From an uncultured Spirochaetaceae bacterium (GTDB lineage Bacteria; Spirochaetota; Spirochaetia; Sphaerochaetales; Sphaerochaetaceae), in the NCBI GenBank assembly GCA_944389025.1, contig CALXKU010000022.1, positions 1 through 40,572 of the forward strand: a stretch of DNA of 40,572 bases. Direction: 5' to 3'. Below, piece after piece: positions 25,798-39,024 of the stretch (the stretch's first letter is position 1; every line of letters begins with the position of its first letter). The notes below the pieces were generated by a model, which searched no databases, was not told the DNA's origin, and was given only the letters and a program-made list of their open reading frames with translations. Made by a program: the position numbers and the translations under genes.

Positions 25798-26162
25798 AGG
25801 TTAAGATATATCTTACCGATGAGGGTGGAGAGAAGTTCATGGGCATAGGTGTCATATGGCTTCTCGAGGAGATAGAGAGGGCCGGCTCTCTCAGAAAGGC
25901 CGCCATCAATCTCGGAATATCTTACACAAAAAGCTATGCCATGCTCTCTAAGGCGGAAGAGAATCTCGCCTTCCCCCTGATAGAAAGGAGGAAAGGCGGC
26001 TCATCCCATGATGGTGCCATCCTTACCGAGGATGCTAAAAAGTTCATTAAGCTCTACTGGGATTTCCAGTCACGGGCTAAGGAGAGAGTCAGTGAGGAGT
26101 ATGAGGATTTCAGAAAGTCCTATGCTGCTCTTTTCAAGGAGGATGTAAATGGCTCAGTATGA
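25788..26162 (+). CDS. ModE-like winged-helix DNA-binding protein without molybdate domain
   Basis: This 124-aa protein is a ModE N-terminal/LysR-type winged helix-turn-helix. FMGIGVIWLLEEIERAGSLRKAAINLGISYTKSYAMLSKAEENL has the G-S-L-R-KAA-x-LG-x-SY-x-KSY-x-M pattern of ModE. ERRKGGSSHDGAILTEDAKKFI is the wing. The molybdate-binding TOBE domains of full ModE (about 260 aa) are absent, so any signal must be sensed differently. It overlaps the aminotransferase by 10 nt and the phosphofructokinase by 14 nt, so all three are co-translated. The target promoters are unknown. A molybdo-enzyme-like operon lies 3.5 kb away. Confidence 0.8.
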   Translation: MELKVKIYLTDEGGEKFMGIGVIWLLEEIERAGSLRKAAINLGISYTKSYAMLSKAEENLAFPLIERRKGGSSHDGAILTEDAKKFIKLYWDFQSRAKERVSEEYEDFRKSYAALFKEDVNGSV

Positions 26163-27477
26163 TTTCACGGTTGACAGGCTGGGAGAGGCAAAACTCATCT
26201 CACCGATAAGAATGGGAAACAGGCAGGGGGACGGCATGTCCGATTATGTCTCCGATGATGACAGGATCCTTTACGATCTCGATACCGAGGTTGTCGATGG
26301 TAAGACCGTTCCTAAGAACTCGGAATCCCTTGAGCTTGCAGGTCCCAGGGAGAAGATCTATTTCAATCCCAGTCATGTTCATGCTGCCATCTGCACATGC
26401 GGTGGTATCTGTCCAGGGCTTAACAACGTCATACGTGCCGTTGTAAGATGCCTCTGGTACAGATACGGGGTAAGAAGGATCTCCGGTATCCAGTACGGTT
26501 ACCTCGGTCTTCTTGAGAACTCGCCATGGCCCCTTATCCCGCTCGATCCGGATGTAGTTGACGATATCCAGGAGAAAGGTGGTACCATTCTCGGCTCAGC
26601 TCGTGGTGGTGGAAAGCAGGTTGAGGAGATTGTTGACTCCCTTGAGCGTCTTAACATAAACATACTCATCTCTATCGGAGGAGATGGCACGCTTCGTGGT
26701 GCGTTCGATATCGGGGAGGAGATAAAGAAGAGAGGGCTGAAAATCGCTGTAGTGGGAGTTCCGAAGACTATTGATAACGACCTCTCGTTCATCGATTCCT
26801 CATTCGGTTTCGATACCGCGGTCACAAGCGCCGTTCCTTCCGTACGTGGTGCTCATGTCGAGGCTAAGAACAGCATAAACGGAATCGGGCTGGTAAAGGT
26901 TATGGGAAGGGAGTCCGGCTTCATCGCCGCCTCTACAGCCCTTGCCCAGTCGGATGTCAATTTCTGCCTCATCCCTGAGTCCCCGTTCGATCTCACAGGT
27001 CCTAACGGCTTTTTAGAGCATCTTAAGAACAGGATCCTCGACAGGGGTCATGCGGTTATTCTTGTGGCGGAGGGAGCTGGGCAGAACCTCGTTCCTCCCA
27101 CAGGCAAGTTCGATGCCTCAGGAAACAAGAAGTACCAGGATATCGGGCTGTTCTTGAAAGAGGAGATCGGAAAGTATTTTGCCGAGCAGGGAATCCCGAC
27201 TTCAATAAAGTACATCGATCCTTCGTACATAATCCGCTCAGCCCCTGCGAATAGCTACGATTCGATTTATTGTGCCCGTCTTGGAGCTCATGCAGTACAT
27301 GCCGCAATGGCTGGAAAGACGCAGTGCATCGCATCAAGGGTCAACAACCAGTTCGTATATCTTCCGATAAAGGTTGCCGTCTCAAAGCGCAGCCATGTGG
27401 ATATCGAAGGCTCTCTCTGGCGCGATGTGCTTGAGAATACAAGACAGCCATACAGCATGCTGAATTCCCAGCACTGA
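26149..27477 (+). CDS. 6-phosphofructokinase (spirochaete/plant type)
   Basis: This 442-aa enzyme phosphorylates fructose-6-phosphate in glycolysis. The motifs are CTCGGICPGLNNVIRAVV near 83, GGDGTLRGAFDIGEE near 177 and VGVPKTIDNDL near 201. The last carries the catalytic Asp. The phosphoryl-donor residues are mixed: Gly in GGDGT favours ATP, while Lys in PKTIDND is usual in PPi enzymes but also occurs in trypanosome- and plant-type ATP-PFKs. ATP may therefore be the donor despite family annotations as PPi-dependent. AAGGAGG before the ATG lies inside the preceding gene. A terminator follows directly. Confidence 0.9.
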   Translation: MAQYDFTVDRLGEAKLISPIRMGNRQGDGMSDYVSDDDRILYDLDTEVVDGKTVPKNSESLELAGPREKIYFNPSHVHAAICTCGGICPGLNNVIRAVVRCLWYRYGVRRISGIQYGYLGLLENSPWPLIPLDPDVVDDIQEKGGTILGSARGGGKQVEEIVDSLERLNINILISIGGDGTLRGAFDIGEEIKKRGLKIAVVGVPKTIDNDLSFIDSSFGFDTAVTSAVPSVRGAHVEAKNSINGIGLVKVMGRESGFIAASTALAQSDVNFCLIPESPFDLTGPNGFLEHLKNRILDRGHAVILVAEGAGQNLVPPTGKFDASGNKKYQDIGLFLKEEIGKYFAEQGIPTSIKYIDPSYIIRSAPANSYDSIYCARLGAHAVHAAMAGKTQCIASRVNNQFVYLPIKVAVSKRSHVDIEGSLWRDVLENTRQPYSMLNSQH

Positions 27478-27527: not shown

Positions 27528-28283
27528 ATGAACATCAGGTGGGACAGCGAGGAGTATAAGAGGAATTTTTCATTCGTCCCCTCTTACGGGGAGGATGTGC
27601 TTAGTCTTATCACAGTTGGAAAAGGGGCGCGAGCACTCGACCTTGGATGCGGTAACGGGCACCTTACATCCGCCCTCTATAAGAGAGGCTTCTCAGTCAT
27701 TGGCATCGATCAGTCCGATGATATGCTTTCTCTGGCAAGAAAGGACTATCCAGACCTTGAGTTCAGAAAAGGCGACGCCCTTACTTTCTCTCTTGAAAAG
27801 AAGGCCGATCTCATATTCTCTAACGCCGTATTCCATTGGATCGATGGGGAGAGGCAGGAAGATCTTATGGAGAACATCTCCCGGAATCTGAAAAGAGGAG
27901 GGGAGCTTGTTTTCGAGATGGGCGGGAAAGGTTGCGCGGAGAGCGTTCACTCCACCCTTGAAGAAGTATTCAAAGAAAAAGGATTGCTCTACAAGAGAAC
28001 ATTCTTCTTTCCCTCCATTGGTGAGTATGCTCCAATAATCGAACGCCATGGACTCAAAATAGATTATGCCATCCTCTTTGACCGCCCGACAGTGCAAAGT
28101 GCTAAAGACGGGCTTTCCTCCTGGATAAGGATGTTCGATAGTGCTCCATTCGAGGGCCTTGATGAGAGAAGGGTTGAAGAAATCATAAGGGAAGCGGAGA
28201 AAAGGCTTGAAAAAAGGCTCTTCATCAACGGAAGATGGACTATAGATTATGTCCGACTACGGATGAGAGCACACCGCCTTTGA
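27528..28283 (+). CDS. Class I SAM-dependent methyltransferase (trans-aconitate methyltransferase-like)
   Basis: This 251-aa cytosolic methyltransferase has SAM motif I at ALDLGCGNGHLTSAL near 35-49, the acidic loop GIDQSDDMLSLAR near 59, GDA near 82 and the family-typical FSNAVFHWI near 97. The N-terminus (WDSEEYKRNFSFVPSYGEDV) and the overall size resemble trans-aconitate 2-methyltransferase, but substrate choice in this family cannot be read from these motifs. A purine-rich ribosome binding site precedes the ATG. It is the last host gene before the sRNA and the integrated element. Confidence 0.8.
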   Translation: MNIRWDSEEYKRNFSFVPSYGEDVLSLITVGKGARALDLGCGNGHLTSALYKRGFSVIGIDQSDDMLSLARKDYPDLEFRKGDALTFSLEKKADLIFSNAVFHWIDGERQEDLMENISRNLKRGGELVFEMGGKGCAESVHSTLEEVFKEKGLLYKRTFFFPSIGEYAPIIERHGLKIDYAILFDRPTVQSAKDGLSSWIRMFDSAPFEGLDERRVEEIIREAEKRLEKRLFINGRWTIDYVRLRMRAHRL

Positions 28284-28581: not shown

Positions 28582-28610
28582 TTTACAAGCTTTTCTAAAG
28601 TCGATATAGT
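28582..28610 (+). promoter_or_regulatory. Promoter of the candidate sRNA
   Basis: TTTACA (28582-28587), 17-nt spacer, TATAGT (28605-28610). The predicted start at about 28617 falls exactly at the base of the first RNA hairpin (28618). Confidence 0.65.
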
Positions 28611-28616
28611 ACGAAT

Positions 28617-28706
28617 GGAAATAAGGAAGACGCATTCCTTATTTCGAACCTCCTTTTGTTCCCCACAGAGCGGTTTACCTCCTTTTGTCCGCAGTGGGGT
28701 TTTTTA
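28617..28706 (+). ncRNA. Candidate small RNA with two anti-Shine-Dalgarno motifs
   Basis: A promoter, two stem-loops and a terminator define an RNA of about 90 nt. Hairpin 1 is GAAATAAGGAA (28618-28628) / TTCCTTATTTC (28635-28645), 11 perfect pairs with a 6-nt loop. A linker holds ACCTCCTTTTGT (28648-28659). Hairpin 2 is CCCCAC-AGA-GCGG (28661-28673) / CCGC-A-GTGGGG (28689-28699) with loop TTTACCTCCTTTTGT, an exact second copy of the motif at 28677-28688, then six Ts. ACCTCCTTT is the 3' tail of 16S rRNA, so both exposed copies can pair with mRNA ribosome binding sites. C/U-rich single-stranded seeds are known from trans-acting sRNAs of the RsaE/RoxS type. A 46-codon frame crosses the region (ATG 28615) but would read through the terminator, so I favour non-coding RNA. 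Confidence 0.65.
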
Positions 28707-28710
28707 TTTT
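28661..28710 (+). terminator. Terminator of the candidate sRNA, overlapping attL
   Basis: The two-part stem CCCCAC/GTGGGG and GCGG/CCGC is followed by T6-A-T4. Its 3' arm and T-tract are the repeated attachment-site core. Confidence 0.88.
28691..28710 (+). repeat. attL candidate (20-bp core repeat, left copy)
   Basis: GCAGTGGGG followed by T6-A-T4, identical to 39005-39024. Here it forms the working 3' half of the sRNA terminator. Confidence 0.68.
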
Positions 28711-28886: not shown

Positions 28887-30052
28887 ATGAGTAGAGCAAA
28901 GCTACCAGTTAAATACTGGAAGAATGGAGATTATTACTACTATAAGACACCGGAGATGTCTTGCTTCAAGACAACCGGTCAGACAAGCAAACCAATGGCT
29001 ATGAAGTATGTTAATGATCTGATGGTAAAGAAGATGTTAGGCAAAGCCAATCCTTTGTTCAAGGATTATGCAGAGCCTTACTTTGACTGGGACAGGTGTC
29101 CTCATGCAACGAGACTCAGGGCAGAGGGGAAGCATATTACTGAGAGATATTGCCATAACAACAGAAGGCTCCTTGAGAAGTATTTCTTTGATTCAGAGCT
29201 TGGGAGGATCCATATAGCAGATATCAGGAGAGGGGATATTCTCAGGTTCAGAGATAAGCTCCTGAATAACAAGGTCTCAAAGAATATTATCAATTCAACT
29301 ATCAGGACAATCTCTGTGATTCTTGGAGAGGCTGTTTACAGGGAAGATATACCTTATAACCCAGCAGAGAAAATAGGGAAGATGGTGACAGATAATAAAG
29401 AAGCAGGAGTATTCACAGCTCAGGAACTTGGAATGCTGTTTATCCATCCAGAATTGTCCCTAGCCTGGGAGACCCCTTCTGATTATATCTGTTACTTGAT
29501 AGCGGCTCTTACTGGTATGAGGAAGAGTGAGATACTCTGCCTGAAATGGGGGAACATAAGGTTCGATAATAATATCATATATGTTAAGGAAGCTTGGAAG
29601 GATGATTGCAACCATGTAGTAGGGCTTCCTAAAAGCTATAAGCCAAGAACTGTTATCCTCTGTGATTTCCTGAAGGAGAGAGGTTACAGCAATTCCGTGG
29701 CTATACAAAGTTTTCAGGGGAAGCAGACTTGGTTGTTTGCAATATGGATGGGACTCCGTATAGCCTCTGGCACTGGCAGAGGGCTTTTAATAGAGCTATA
29801 TCTGCTATCGGGATAACAAAGGAGGAGAAGGAATTCCGTCATCTGAAGCCTCATAGCTTCAGGCATACCCTGAACACTCTTCTTCTTGAAAAAGGAGAAA
29901 GTCCTGAGGTTATAAGGGCTATGACTGGGTGGAGTAATCCTCAGATGCAGAGAAACTACACCCACTATGATGCAGCTCGTATGGTGAATCAGGGAAAGGT
30001 GATTGATGCAATATTGATAGAGGGAACAGAGGAGAATCATAAGGAATCCTGA
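28887..30052 (+). pseudogene. Tyrosine-type site-specific integrase, frameshifted
   Basis: The first frame (28887-29816) encodes the N-terminal arm-binding and SAM-like core-binding domains and the catalytic Arg in LTGMRKSEILCLKW near residue 211. The second frame (open from before 29729 to 30052) encodes the rest: HSFRHT (His-x-x-Arg) and the nucleophile Tyr in RNYTHYD. Continuity requires a net -1 shift near 29690-29725. The G4 run at 29717-29720 is the likely place, giving ...SFQGEADLVVCNMDGTPYS. It is a single-base loss, a sequencing error or, less likely, slippage at GGGG. The start has a strong ribosome binding site. The gene sits 176 nt from attL. Confidence 0.88.
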
Positions 30053-32187: not shown

Positions 32188-32853
32188 TTACCTTTCAAAC
32201 CTGAACCTTGTTGTCTTTGGATCATATGAAAGCTTTATATCTTTCTTATCCTTCAGGTTTACAAGCCTTGCCTCATTGCTATCCCTTTTCCTTTTCAGAC
32301 AGTAGAAGTTATCTATGAAAGGACTATCTATAATTACCTCTCCACTTCCCCTTGGAATCGGTTGTAGGGCTATTACCGCTATTTCTAACCTTTCTGCAAG
32401 GGCTTTCAGTTCCTTTATGATATCCTTTCCTTCATCCTTTATAAGCTCCAGATAATCGATGATGACTACTTCTGCCTTGCCTTCATTATGTATCTTCTCT
32501 ATAAGGGCTATTACCTCAGATAAGGAAGGAGTTATCATATCTTCTATTGTAAAGCGATAGAGAGCTAAATCAGCCTTAGTTTCAGCAATCTTTTTACTTT
32601 CTTCCTCTGAAAGGTTATCTTTCTCTATTTTCCTTAATTCTATCTGGGAGACAACAGAAAGAATCCTCTTCCTTAGCTTCTCCTCATCAAACTCAAAGGA
32701 GAGATAGATGGCTTGCTCATCCTTCTCTACAGAAGCGAGAAGGAAGTGAATCCCTAGTGCTGTCTTTCCTACAGAAGGCTCTGCTTCTATGAGTGAGAGA
32801 TTGCCTTTCTTTTCAAAAACCTGCTCAAATGAAACTAGATCAGTTTTTCCCAT
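32188..32853 (-). CDS. DnaB/RadA-like RecA-fold ATPase
   Basis: This 221-aa protein corresponds to a lone helicase C-terminal (RecA-like) domain. Walker A is AEPSVGKT at 24-31, followed by ALGIHFLLASVEKDEQAIYLSFEF, the DnaB-type first strand. Walker B is VVIID at 129-133. IAVIALQPIPRG near 170 resembles the DnaB sensor segment. The protein lacks the DnaB N-terminal domain and is much shorter than DnaB (about 450 aa). It is probably the element's replication ATPase or helicase loader. It is the last gene of a leftward unit with the nuclease and methylase genes (10-nt gap), so replication and RM genes may share a transcript. Confidence 0.72.
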   Translation of the reverse strand: MGKTDLVSFEQVFEKKGNLSLIEAEPSVGKTALGIHFLLASVEKDEQAIYLSFEFDEEKLRKRILSVVSQIELRKIEKDNLSEEESKKIAETKADLALYRFTIEDMITPSLSEVIALIEKIHNEGKAEVVIIDYLELIKDEGKDIIKELKALAERLEIAVIALQPIPRGSGEVIIDSPFIDNFYCLKRKRDSNEARLVNLKDKKDIKLSYDPKTTRFRFER

Positions 32854-32862
32854 AAATTTCTC

Positions 32863-34035
32863 CTATTTGTTTCCTTTCGACCTATTGTGGAACTTGCATA
32901 GCATCTGGCAGTTGGAGATATCAGTAGCTCCTCCTTTACTCCACGCTGTTACATGATCTGCATCCATTTCCTTGAGCTTGTATATTCGGATCTTTGTAGA
33001 CGGACTGCCGAATTGCACACACATAGGGCAGTTGGATATTCCTTGGGCTTCTGCTTCTTTTGTCTGTACTGTATAGACGGATTTGATGACAGCATCACTG
33101 AAAACTCTGATTTCAAGAAGTTTGCTATCTTCAATCCTGCATCCTCCTAGGACATATTCAAAGATTCCCGACTTCTTATGTACACAAGGATCTGCATAAA
33201 GCTCTTCTACCTTATCCCATACTTCATCTCTGTTGTATGGGGTGGTATGATATTGCTCATATAATCTGCCCCATTCAAGTCCTTGCATTTCATCCTTGAT
33301 GCCCTTGAACACAGAATCTGCCCATCCAAGCACAGAATTGAAATATCTCTTAAGCTCATTGATATCGGTATCCATTCGATGCTGTGACATATAATCACTA
33401 ACATTGCCTTTGCTTACCCATTCAAGAGCTGTAGCTAGATAATCTTGTCTGTTTGCACTGCCTCTGATATAAGCCCTCCATTTCTGTACATTGGAATTCT
33501 GTGAGTTGCTGAACTCTTTCTTGGCCAATGTCACGAAGGGGCCAGAGTATATGGCATTAAGAAGTTCCTGCTCATTAAGGGGAACACCAGCTATATTTAT
33601 AGTTTTAAACCATTCCTTTATCTCTTGTTCTGTCCCTTGGCAGGTATAAATGAGGAGCGGGGTGTCATTTATCTTCTGTTGAAGATTCTGTGGAAGACTG
33701 GAGAAATACTGAGGTACATTGTTTGTATCCATGATGGCAAACAGTCCTTCAATATAACGTCCAATACTTGTGATTCTCTGCTGTCCGTCAAGAACCTCAT
33801 ATCTTCCTGGACTTGGTTCATTGAAATATATAAGCCCTATGGGATAACCCTTGATAAGAGATTCAATTACAGCAACATCCTTCTGGCCATTAGCATAGAT
33901 GTAGTTCCTTTGGTATTCAGGTTGAATAGTGAGTTTACCTTTCCATCCGTACAATCCTTTTCCTTCAGTTTCATCGTAATGGAAACCTTCGCATATATCT
34001 TTTACAGTAACGTTAGTTAGAAGTGTTGTTTTCAT
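32863..34035 (-). CDS. DUF262-HNH protein, probable restriction endonuclease
   Basis: This 390-aa protein has an N-terminal DUF262 (GmrS/ParB-like) domain with [10 protein letters not shown] near 38-47 and the nucleotide-hydrolysis motif DGQQR at 83-87. The C-terminal HNH nuclease has CPMC near 330 and [19 protein letters not shown] near 357, with a second zinc pair in [13 protein letters not shown]. Such fusions occur as restriction enzymes and anti-phage nucleases. It overlaps the methylase gene by 4 nt, so it is the likely cognate nuclease. Whether it cuts unmodified sites, or modified phage DNA as GmrSD does, cannot be told from sequence. The methylase partner favours classical restriction. 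Confidence 0.83.
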
Positions 34036-35117
34036 TTATACCTCCTTCTTTGTTGTATGAATATGCGGCCATATTTAAGTTTCCCTCCAATATATGGCCC
34101 ATCTTTACCTGTTTTTGATTCAAGACCAGCCAAACCTCTTATATTTCCAGCCGTTAGACCAACTATATTAAACTGTTCGGGACTATATTTATCCATGAAT
34201 GTAATCGGGACACCCATAACTCCTTCATAATCAGAAGGAATAGCATCTGTATAAGGAACTTCTATAGCATCGTAGTTATCGTATTTCAGATAGCCTTGTT
34301 CTTTTATTTCCTTATGTTTGCTGTACTTCAGATTATCAGCCATTGTCATAAGGGATAGATATTCATGACGCTTTGCTAAGTCTATGTTGGTAAACCAGCA
34401 TATATTTCCCATGCTCCTCCATTTTTGCCCTGTCTCATCTACCCAGAAACGTGTTGAGCGAGGTTCATAATATGAAGGAACAGTAAAAGCCATATCTCCA
34501 GACTTCTTGCCAAGCCATATCTTATTTTCCTTTAGCAATGGAAATACTTCTTTATAGGTTATTGCGTTCTGATTCCCGATAATCAGGAACTTCTTATCCG
34601 CTTCGAGAATCCATTGCAGGAAATCTCTGAAAAGACTGAATGGCGGATTTGTTATGATGAAGTCAGCCTCATCCCTCAGCTTGCATACCTCTCTTGATCT
34701 GAAATCACCAGTACCATCAAGATAATTCCATTTGAGATCAGCTAGGTCTCTTCTATTATCAGAAGAATCCTTCTCAAGAGTGAAGATCTTTCCATGTGTC
34801 TTGGACATATCCTCATCGAATATCGGGCTTTCCTGCTCAAACAAAGAAGGCTGATAGTCCATATACTTCTTGCTTTCAGGAGCAAATGAAGTGCTTATCA
34901 GCTTCTTTAATCCGAATCTGTCAAAGTTCTGAGCAAAGAATTTAGTGAAATTCGACCATTCTGGATCGTCACACGGAAGCAATATTGTTTTATCCCTGAA
35001 TACATCGGGGTTGAAATCTACATAGGCATTAACCTCATTCTGAATATCAGCATATTGCGTGTAGAATTCATCCTCTTTGTTAGCCTTAGCCTGATTAAGC
35101 TGTCGTTGCAGTGCCAA
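34032..35117 (-). CDS. EcoRI-type adenine-specific DNA methyltransferase
   Basis: This 361-aa methylase starts at TTG 35117. AAGGAGG five bases upstream decides the start, and the protein then begins (M)[20 protein letters not shown], the conserved opening of EcoRI-methylase-like enzymes (N/K-KxDEFYTQxxDIxxE). [17 protein letters not shown] follows. The catalytic motif is NPPF near 157-160 with [10 protein letters not shown] after it. MTase motif I is unconventional, as in that family. The product is probably N6-methyladenine in a palindrome. It protects host DNA from the downstream HNH nuclease, whose start overlaps this stop by 4 nt. Confidence 0.87.
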
Positions 35118-35214
35118 ATATACCTCCTTGATGGCAGGAATCAAGCATGACTGCTGCCAGAAGAGACTTTTTGCTATGAATCCAGCCAAACCAGATGTAA
35201 AGTTTTTTTGCCAA

Positions 35215-38184: not shown

Positions 38185-38224
38185 TTGACAGACTATTTCT
38201 TCTTGAGATATGGTCCCAGGACCA
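38185..38224 (+). promoter_or_regulatory. Promoter and palindrome before the serine recombinase
   Basis: TTGACA (38185-38190), 18-nt spacer, TATGGT (38209-38214). The palindrome TGGTCC-CA-GGACCA (38211-38224) overlaps the -10 and start site, so binding there would block transcription. Confidence 0.6.
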
Positions 38225-38239
38225 AAAACAGGAGGAGAT

Positions 38240-38815
38240 ATGAAAGTAGCTTATATTAGAGTATCCACAGAGGAGCAGAACACAGCCAGACAGGAAGAAG
38301 CTATGAAGTCTCAGGGAGTTGAGAAAACCTTTATAGAGAAGATTTCAGGGAAGAGCATGGATCGTCCTCAGCTCAAGGCTATGCTTGATTATGTTAGGGA
38401 GGGAGACATTCTTGTGGTTGAATCCTATTCAAGGCTTGCTAGGAATACTAAAGACCTTCTATCTATCGTTGAGGAGCTTGAGAAGAAGAGTGTAGCCTTT
38501 GTCTCCCTTAAGGAGAATATAGATACCTCAACCCCTCAGGGTAAGCTCATGCTTACAATCTTTGCAGGGCTTGCTCAGTTTGAGAGGGAATGTACTCTGC
38601 AGAGACAGAAAGAAGGAATAGCTATAGCTAAGGCAGAGGGAAAGTATAAGGGAAGGAAGCCTGTAGCTATCCCTGATAATTGGAAGGAGACTATTGCCCT
38701 TTGGAAGAATGGGGAGATAACAGCCAGGGTTGCTCAGAAGAAACTAGGAATGACTCCTGCTACCTTTTACAGAAAGGCAAAAAGAGAAGGCTTCAGTAGA
38801 GAGCTTGGAATTTAA
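38240..38815 (+). CDS. Serine recombinase (resolvase/invertase family)
   Basis: This 191-aa small serine recombinase starts at ATG 38240, preferred because GGAGGAG (38231-38237) precedes it. The catalytic Ser9 lies in YIRVSTEEQ. The conserved Arg lies in ESYSRLARNTKDLL near 66-78. GLAQFERE and the E-helix follow near 113. The C-terminal helix-turn-helix is ITARVAQKKLGMTPATFYRKAKREG. Length and layout are typical of Tn3-resolvase/Hin enzymes. In the element it may resolve multimers or invert DNA. No invertible segment was recognised. Confidence 0.9.
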   Translation: MKVAYIRVSTEEQNTARQEEAMKSQGVEKTFIEKISGKSMDRPQLKAMLDYVREGDILVVESYSRLARNTKDLLSIVEELEKKSVAFVSLKENIDTSTPQGKLMLTIFAGLAQFERECTLQRQKEGIAIAKAEGKYKGRKPVAIPDNWKETIALWKNGEITARVAQKKLGMTPATFYRKAKREGFSRELGI

Positions 38816-39004: not shown

Positions 39005-39024
39005 GCAGTGGGGTTTTTTATTTT
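39005..39024 (+). repeat. attR candidate (20-bp core repeat, right copy)
   Basis: The sequence is identical to 28691-28710. No CCCCAC arm lies upstream, so this copy cannot form the terminator, which argues that it arose by site-specific duplication. Confidence 0.68.

Follow-up and report, generated by a model that had tools for sequence, protein, structure and literature searches.

Background

The locus described here raises two questions: whether it is the gene of a small RNA, and what such an RNA would do with two copies of a word resembling the 3' tail of 16S rRNA. It lies in the genome of an uncultured Spirochaetaceae bacterium, within a stretch of 40,572 nucleotides that was analysed as a whole (the window). 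To our knowledge, post-transcriptional control is poorly understood in spirochaetes other than Borrelia. In this study, we report that the locus, as judged from comparison with its homologues, is a conserved non-coding RNA gene and no chance match, and propose that its product may act in trans on strong Shine-Dalgarno (SD) sites.

Anatomy of the small RNA gene

The first-pass annotation had described a promoter, an 11-bp hairpin, a linker, a terminator and two exact copies of ACCTCCTTTTGT, and each of these was recovered by motif search and folding (Table 1). The -35 and -10 elements are kept at the same positions across the alignment of the genus, where they read TTTTCA or TTTACA and TATATT or TATAGT, respectively. 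Hairpin 1, whose loop (GACGCA) is without the anti-SD motif, has a fold z of -5.3 in the window's own sequence; it is kept with changed sequence in the genus and is weak or absent in more distant homologues. In the terminator stem, obtained by folding positions 28617-28706, 28661-28666 pairs with 28694-28699 and 28670-28673 with 28689-28692. This terminator was missed by a simple terminator scan because its loop has 15 nt and the scan permits only 3-8.

Table 1. Positions of the small RNA gene, its parts and its flanking features in the window
Feature	Position	Strand	Evidence or remark
pfk, ATP-dependent 6-phosphofructokinase, conserved upstream neighbour	26149..27477	+	
Promoter TTTACA-17-TATAGT	28582..28610	+	-35 TTTACA 28582-28587, 17-nt spacer, -10 TATAGT 28605-28610
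Predicted small RNA, ~89 nt	28617..28705	+	Promoter, fold, terminator, conservation; putative transcription start
Hairpin 1, 11 bp, 6-nt loop	28618..28645	+	Folding; 28618-28628 pairs with 28635-28645
Single-stranded linker GAACCTCCTTTTGTT	28646..28660	+	Holds first anti-SD copy, 28648-28659
Intrinsic terminator hairpin and T6 tail	28661..28705	+	Folding; compensatory changes
Terminator loop TTTACCTCCTTTTGT	28674..28688	+	Holds second anti-SD copy, 28677-28688
attL-like copy of 20-bp exact direct repeat GCAGTGGGGTTTTTTATTTT	28691..28710	+	Overlaps RNA terminator
attR-like copy of 20-bp repeat GCAGTGGGGTTTTTTATTTT	39005..39024	+	10,314 bp from first copy

The same folding gave the linker and loop copies mean unpaired probabilities of 0.87 and 0.91, in agreement with the earlier prediction that both are single-stranded. 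A longer folded region was more stable than its shuffles (z -2.63; 4 of 200 shuffles were as good). With at most one mismatch, the 12-mer was found four times in the window, against a mean of 0.27 in shuffled windows, and two of the four matches are the exact copies inside the RNA gene. The locus is present as a single copy in its own genome.

Match to the 16S rRNA tail

Since no 16S gene was detectable in the window's own assembly (2.31 Mb, 39 contigs, 97.6% complete), the tail was taken from five related genomes, in all of which it reads GGATCACCTCCTTTCT. The word common to the RNA and this tail is therefore ACCUCCUUU (9 nt), and the proposed mimicry of the 16S anti-SD tail stands at that length in the five relatives.

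Conservation and covariation

A query of 156 bases recovered the locus in nearly all genomes of the same genus, with compensatory changes in the stems. The 14-nt linker sequence AACCTCCTTTTGTT is invariant throughout the genus. Ten letters, ACCTCCTTTT, are invariant at both sites in 42 aligned homologues, part of which came from a pattern scan that itself required ACCTCCTTTT; the same-genus and model searches did not require it. Runs of U flank the anti-SD word in nearly all homologues, UUU before it and UUU(U) after it.

In the terminator stem of the 42-homologue alignment, 25 double-changed cells were counted, compared with 11.7 in shuffles, and when the stem partner was shifted by one column, 63-72% of cells paired instead of 88%. 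Of the stem cells within the genus, 96% pair. The class-level alignment (27 sequences) gave 33 double-changed cells against 9.1 in shuffles. Within the window's own family both motifs are invariant and stay single-stranded in the predicted fold, and the stems covary.

The start-to-start distance of the motifs varies between 26 and 33 nt, and the loci fall into groups of 17, 18 and 29 by its remainder on division by three. This spread over all three frames indicates that the locus is not coding. The first-pass annotation had held that homologues keeping a reading frame rather than the stems and motifs would speak against an RNA gene; the homologues keep the stems and motifs, at spacings that do not preserve a frame.

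Distribution among spirochaetes

A pattern scan covered about 85,000 species genomes; among the matches listed, which also include unrelated chance matches, the same module was found in Sphaerochaeta, Pleomorphochaeta, Candidatus Ornithospirochaeta and other Spirochaetes. A first covariance model, built from these homologues, was applied to 393 genomes of the phylum and matched 83 of them; most of these matches, including all strong ones, were in one class. A second model, built from 27 sequences with class-level matches included, was then applied at E <= 0.001. The custom search suggested earlier thus yielded matches in 204 of 391 Spirochaetia genomes (83 of 128 genera), including most members of the window's own family. 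A fixed anti-SD terminator loop in about half of the searched Spirochaetia genomes makes the RNA a defined candidate regulator, and the window's own genome has no Hfq recognisable by Pfam PF17209.

When 40 more distant matches were read, the most constant element was the terminator-loop word, GGGTTT-(N)ACCTCCTTT-CCC or near it. Distant relatives often lack the linker copy and retain the one in the terminator loop; in one set of 20 distant matches, 13 had two C-rich words and 7 had one. Both copies lie in hairpin loops in two related genomes (L194 and L196), and at another locus (L199) only the linker copy is present. Several of the distant matches are in single-contig genomes of 2.7-2.9 Mb. 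The earlier claim that the tail is mimicked twice is accordingly true of the window's own family, where both copies are invariant, but is no class-wide rule, the linker copy being optional in distant relatives.

Several families carry two to four copies of the RNA per genome. Such numbers of model matches per genome were seen in G047, in G436 and in the genomes of family f33, and are reminiscent of the multicopy LhrC. In addition, TGTAAC(C/T) was seen upstream, at a similar distance, in many homologues outside Sphaerochaetaceae (L182-L201 and L388-L407), and could possibly be a shared activator site or promoter element.

Genomic neighbourhood

Of the 64 locus records, in which some genomes are counted twice, 41 have pfk as the first or second same-strand upstream gene. 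In the window a methyltransferase gene (27528-28283) stands between pfk and the RNA, and the pfk homologue is itself preceded by a LysR-type helix-turn-helix protein. Beyond the terminator, glucose-6-phosphate isomerase (pgi) follows in several lineages, five of which were verified over the full length; about nine genomes of the genus have a tyrosine recombinase directly downstream of the RNA instead. The presence of pfk upstream in most loci and of pgi adjoining in several suggests, from synteny, a link of the small RNA to sugar metabolism and glycolysis. A cis-acting leader was ruled out, as the downstream genes vary between genomes.

Comparison with known anti-SD RNAs

The locus encodes a conserved, unpaired complement of the SD sequence in a structured and independently terminated RNA, as anti-SD small RNAs do. 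Two described groups come close to it. LhrC has CUCCC...UUUU at three places, namely a hairpin loop, the linker and the terminator loop, each of which can bind the same mRNA site (PMC4132741). The NfeR1/alpha-r14 or 'cuckoo' RNAs carry an identical anti-SD motif, CCUCCUCCC, in three hairpins, and the rhizobial NfeR1 represses periplasmic ABC transporter components independently of Hfq (PMC10746234).

The Listeria RNAs LhrC1-5 (RF00616) share with the spirochaete RNA a hairpin, a single-stranded linker with the motif and a terminator loop with the motif, as well as a C-rich word followed by a U run and redundant sites that block, or in the spirochaete RNA would block, an SD site. They differ in having three sites (CUCCC/UCCC), one of them in the loop of the first hairpin, and five gene copies; in place of a CU-rich motif in loop A, linker and terminator loop, the spirochaete RNA has it in the linker and terminator loop only, hairpin 1 being without it. 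The LhrC model scored 24.9 bits against a gathering cut-off of 110 (E 0.15), and identity with LhrC or with anti-hemB was rejected on Rfam scores far below the cut-off.

With NfeR1/alpha-r14, which are Hfq-independent and have ABC transporter components as predicted and partly verified targets, the RNA shares redundant, identical and unpaired anti-SD motifs, which NfeR1/alpha-r14 hold in hairpins of differing stem sequence. NfeR1/alpha-r14 are alphaproteobacterial and have an ultraconserved CCUCCUCCC in three hairpins, whereas the spirochaete RNA has ACCUCCUUU(U) in linker and terminator loop, its homologues carrying the motif ACCUCCUUUU in one or two copies.

RsaE and FsrA pair with the start regions of mRNAs through C-rich unpaired seeds (PMC4132741). 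Such seeds are common to RsaE/RoxS, FsrA, other Firmicutes RNAs with UCCC loops and the spirochaete RNA, but those RNAs use UCCC and not the 16S word CCUCC. No family of Rfam 15, RsaE-type RNAs included, reached its gathering score for the window or for nine homologous loci, in keeping with the earlier view that the RNA is apparently unrelated to the RsaE type.

The annotation's further statement that no described family with this architecture is known is not supported: LhrC has nearly the same layout (PMC4132741) and NfeR1 the same logic (PMC10746234). In the open papers searched, no fitting small RNA from Sphaerochaeta or Treponema was found. By the Rfam tests, the family is uncatalogued in Rfam 15 and not homologous to LhrC or NfeR1, and its presumed functional kind is already known; the anti-SD logic itself is not new, as LhrC and NfeR1 use redundant anti-SD loops. 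The finding suggests that mimicry by redundant anti-SD loops arose in a third, unrelated bacterial lineage.

Target survey

Targets were surveyed in 1.18 Mb, half of the window's own genome, comprising 1117 open reading frames with mechanically called gene starts. Start regions paired with the linker or loop at <= -10 kcal/mol in 45% of genes and at <= -12 kcal/mol in 21%. Genes with a solute-binding-protein signature, a category chosen after the matches were seen although defined without using the pairing sites, had stronger predicted pairing than the others (median -12.05 vs -9.3, p 1.4e-4). Among the 17 genes whose best-pairing site contains AAAAGGAGG, 5 carry this signature, compared with 25 of 1100 (p 5e-5). 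The 17-18 genes with AAAAGGAGG at the SD position include five solute-binding proteins, one sugar permease-like protein and, by reading of the protein sequence only, a sugar isomerase and a galactokinase.

Pairing with the 16S tail is likewise stronger for the solute-binding-protein genes (p 9e-4), which do not differ from other genes in the excess of RNA over 16S pairing (p 0.17), so that the enrichment may reflect only highly expressed genes. In a related genome, of which half was read, extended SD sites are rare and pairing with the RNA tracks pairing with the 16S tail (r 0.88). What the survey supports is thus pairing with strong SD sites, including those of solute-binding proteins; it does not support selective targeting.

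The full 12-nt complement ACAAAAGGAGGT was found nowhere else in the window's own genome, and a single extended target was rejected for this reason. Avoidance of extended SD words was likewise rejected: a depletion that seemed strong in a relative was only mild against a proper background, and in the window's own genome AAAAGGAGG and its reversed control were about equally frequent (92 vs 95).

Proposed function and alternatives

The best available reading, resting on anatomy, predicted pairing and analogy, is that of a trans-acting anti-SD RNA. An independent RNA of about 89 nt would be transcribed from its own promoter, and the flanking stems would hold the anti-SD words of linker and terminator loop unpaired as redundant seeds. 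These would pair in vivo with strong purine-rich SD sites (AAGGAGG and longer), where either seed could occlude the site and block ribosome binding without Hfq. The location beside pfk and pgi, together with the best-matching sites, suggests that the RNA damps the uptake of sugars and other solutes, presumably when glycolytic flux changes; the glycolytic neighbourhood would thereby indicate the condition under which the RNA matters. We give this reading as a whole a probability of roughly 0.6. A wider version, which we put forward tentatively and regard as somewhat doubtful, makes it an ancient Hfq-independent RNA of Spirochaetia that carries a copy of the 16S tail in its terminator loop and, by its placement between pfk and pgi, couples the translation of solute-uptake genes to the state of glycolysis. 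If this were true, few small regulatory RNAs of Spirochaetia would be conserved more widely.

The survey figures could also be read as those of a general brake, with the RNA competing under stress for the SD sites of much of the transcriptome and having no preferred targets. The ~21% of genes reaching -12 kcal/mol and the correlation with 16S-tail pairing in the related genome are in keeping with this, but an RNA present at ordinary levels would be spread thinly over hundreds of sites, and NfeR1, with similar logic, has defined and verified targets (PMC10746234). We consider such a brake unlikely.

CsrB-type RNAs titrate CsrA, and the UUUACCUCCUUUU repeats might in a similar way be a decoy for a protein that reads the 16S tail, e.g. 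a ribosomal, initiation or cold-shock protein. Titration is consistent with the repeated, identical single-stranded sites and with a conserved loop that extends past the anti-SD word into U runs in nearly all homologues. A decoy is nevertheless improbable, given that many homologues are down to one copy, which would be unusual for a decoy, that the conserved word is exactly the one that pairs with SD sites, that described RNAs of like shape act by pairing, and that no protein candidate was identified.

The invariance of all 14 nt of the linker sequence in the genus exceeds what general SD pairing needs, and would be explained if the RNA bound one SD-like partner, either another small RNA or a single mRNA, or were sponged by it. 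This is a still poorer prospect, as no perfect 12-nt complement was found elsewhere in the window's own genome and distant homologues retain only the anti-SD core. That there is no RNA gene, only the terminator of the upstream operon (pfk stands upstream on the same strand) or a small open reading frame (one beginning with the ATG at 28615 runs through the terminator), can hardly be credited in view of the conserved promoter just upstream, the conserved linker and loop, and motif spacings over all three frames.

Integrative element at the 3' end

Two copies of a 20-bp repeat bracket about 10.3 kb, with a tyrosine recombinase gene at the start of this segment. The segment is an integrative element whose attachment site is the 3' end of the small RNA gene, the terminator being left intact. 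In two other genomes (G029:C13:38217 and G017:C1:225650) the terminator tail occurs again 6-7 kb downstream, and at nine loci a related recombinase adjoins the RNA on its downstream side. The recombinase (28887-30052) is broken into two frames (28887-29816 and 29729-30052), which match consecutive portions of the Phage_integrase profile, and is for this reason probably frameshifted or misassembled. The cargo of the element (32188-35189 and 38210-38815) is restriction-modification-like, and comprises an EcoRI-type adenine methyltransferase, a GmrSD_N/HNH nuclease, a DnaB-like ATPase and a serine resolvase.
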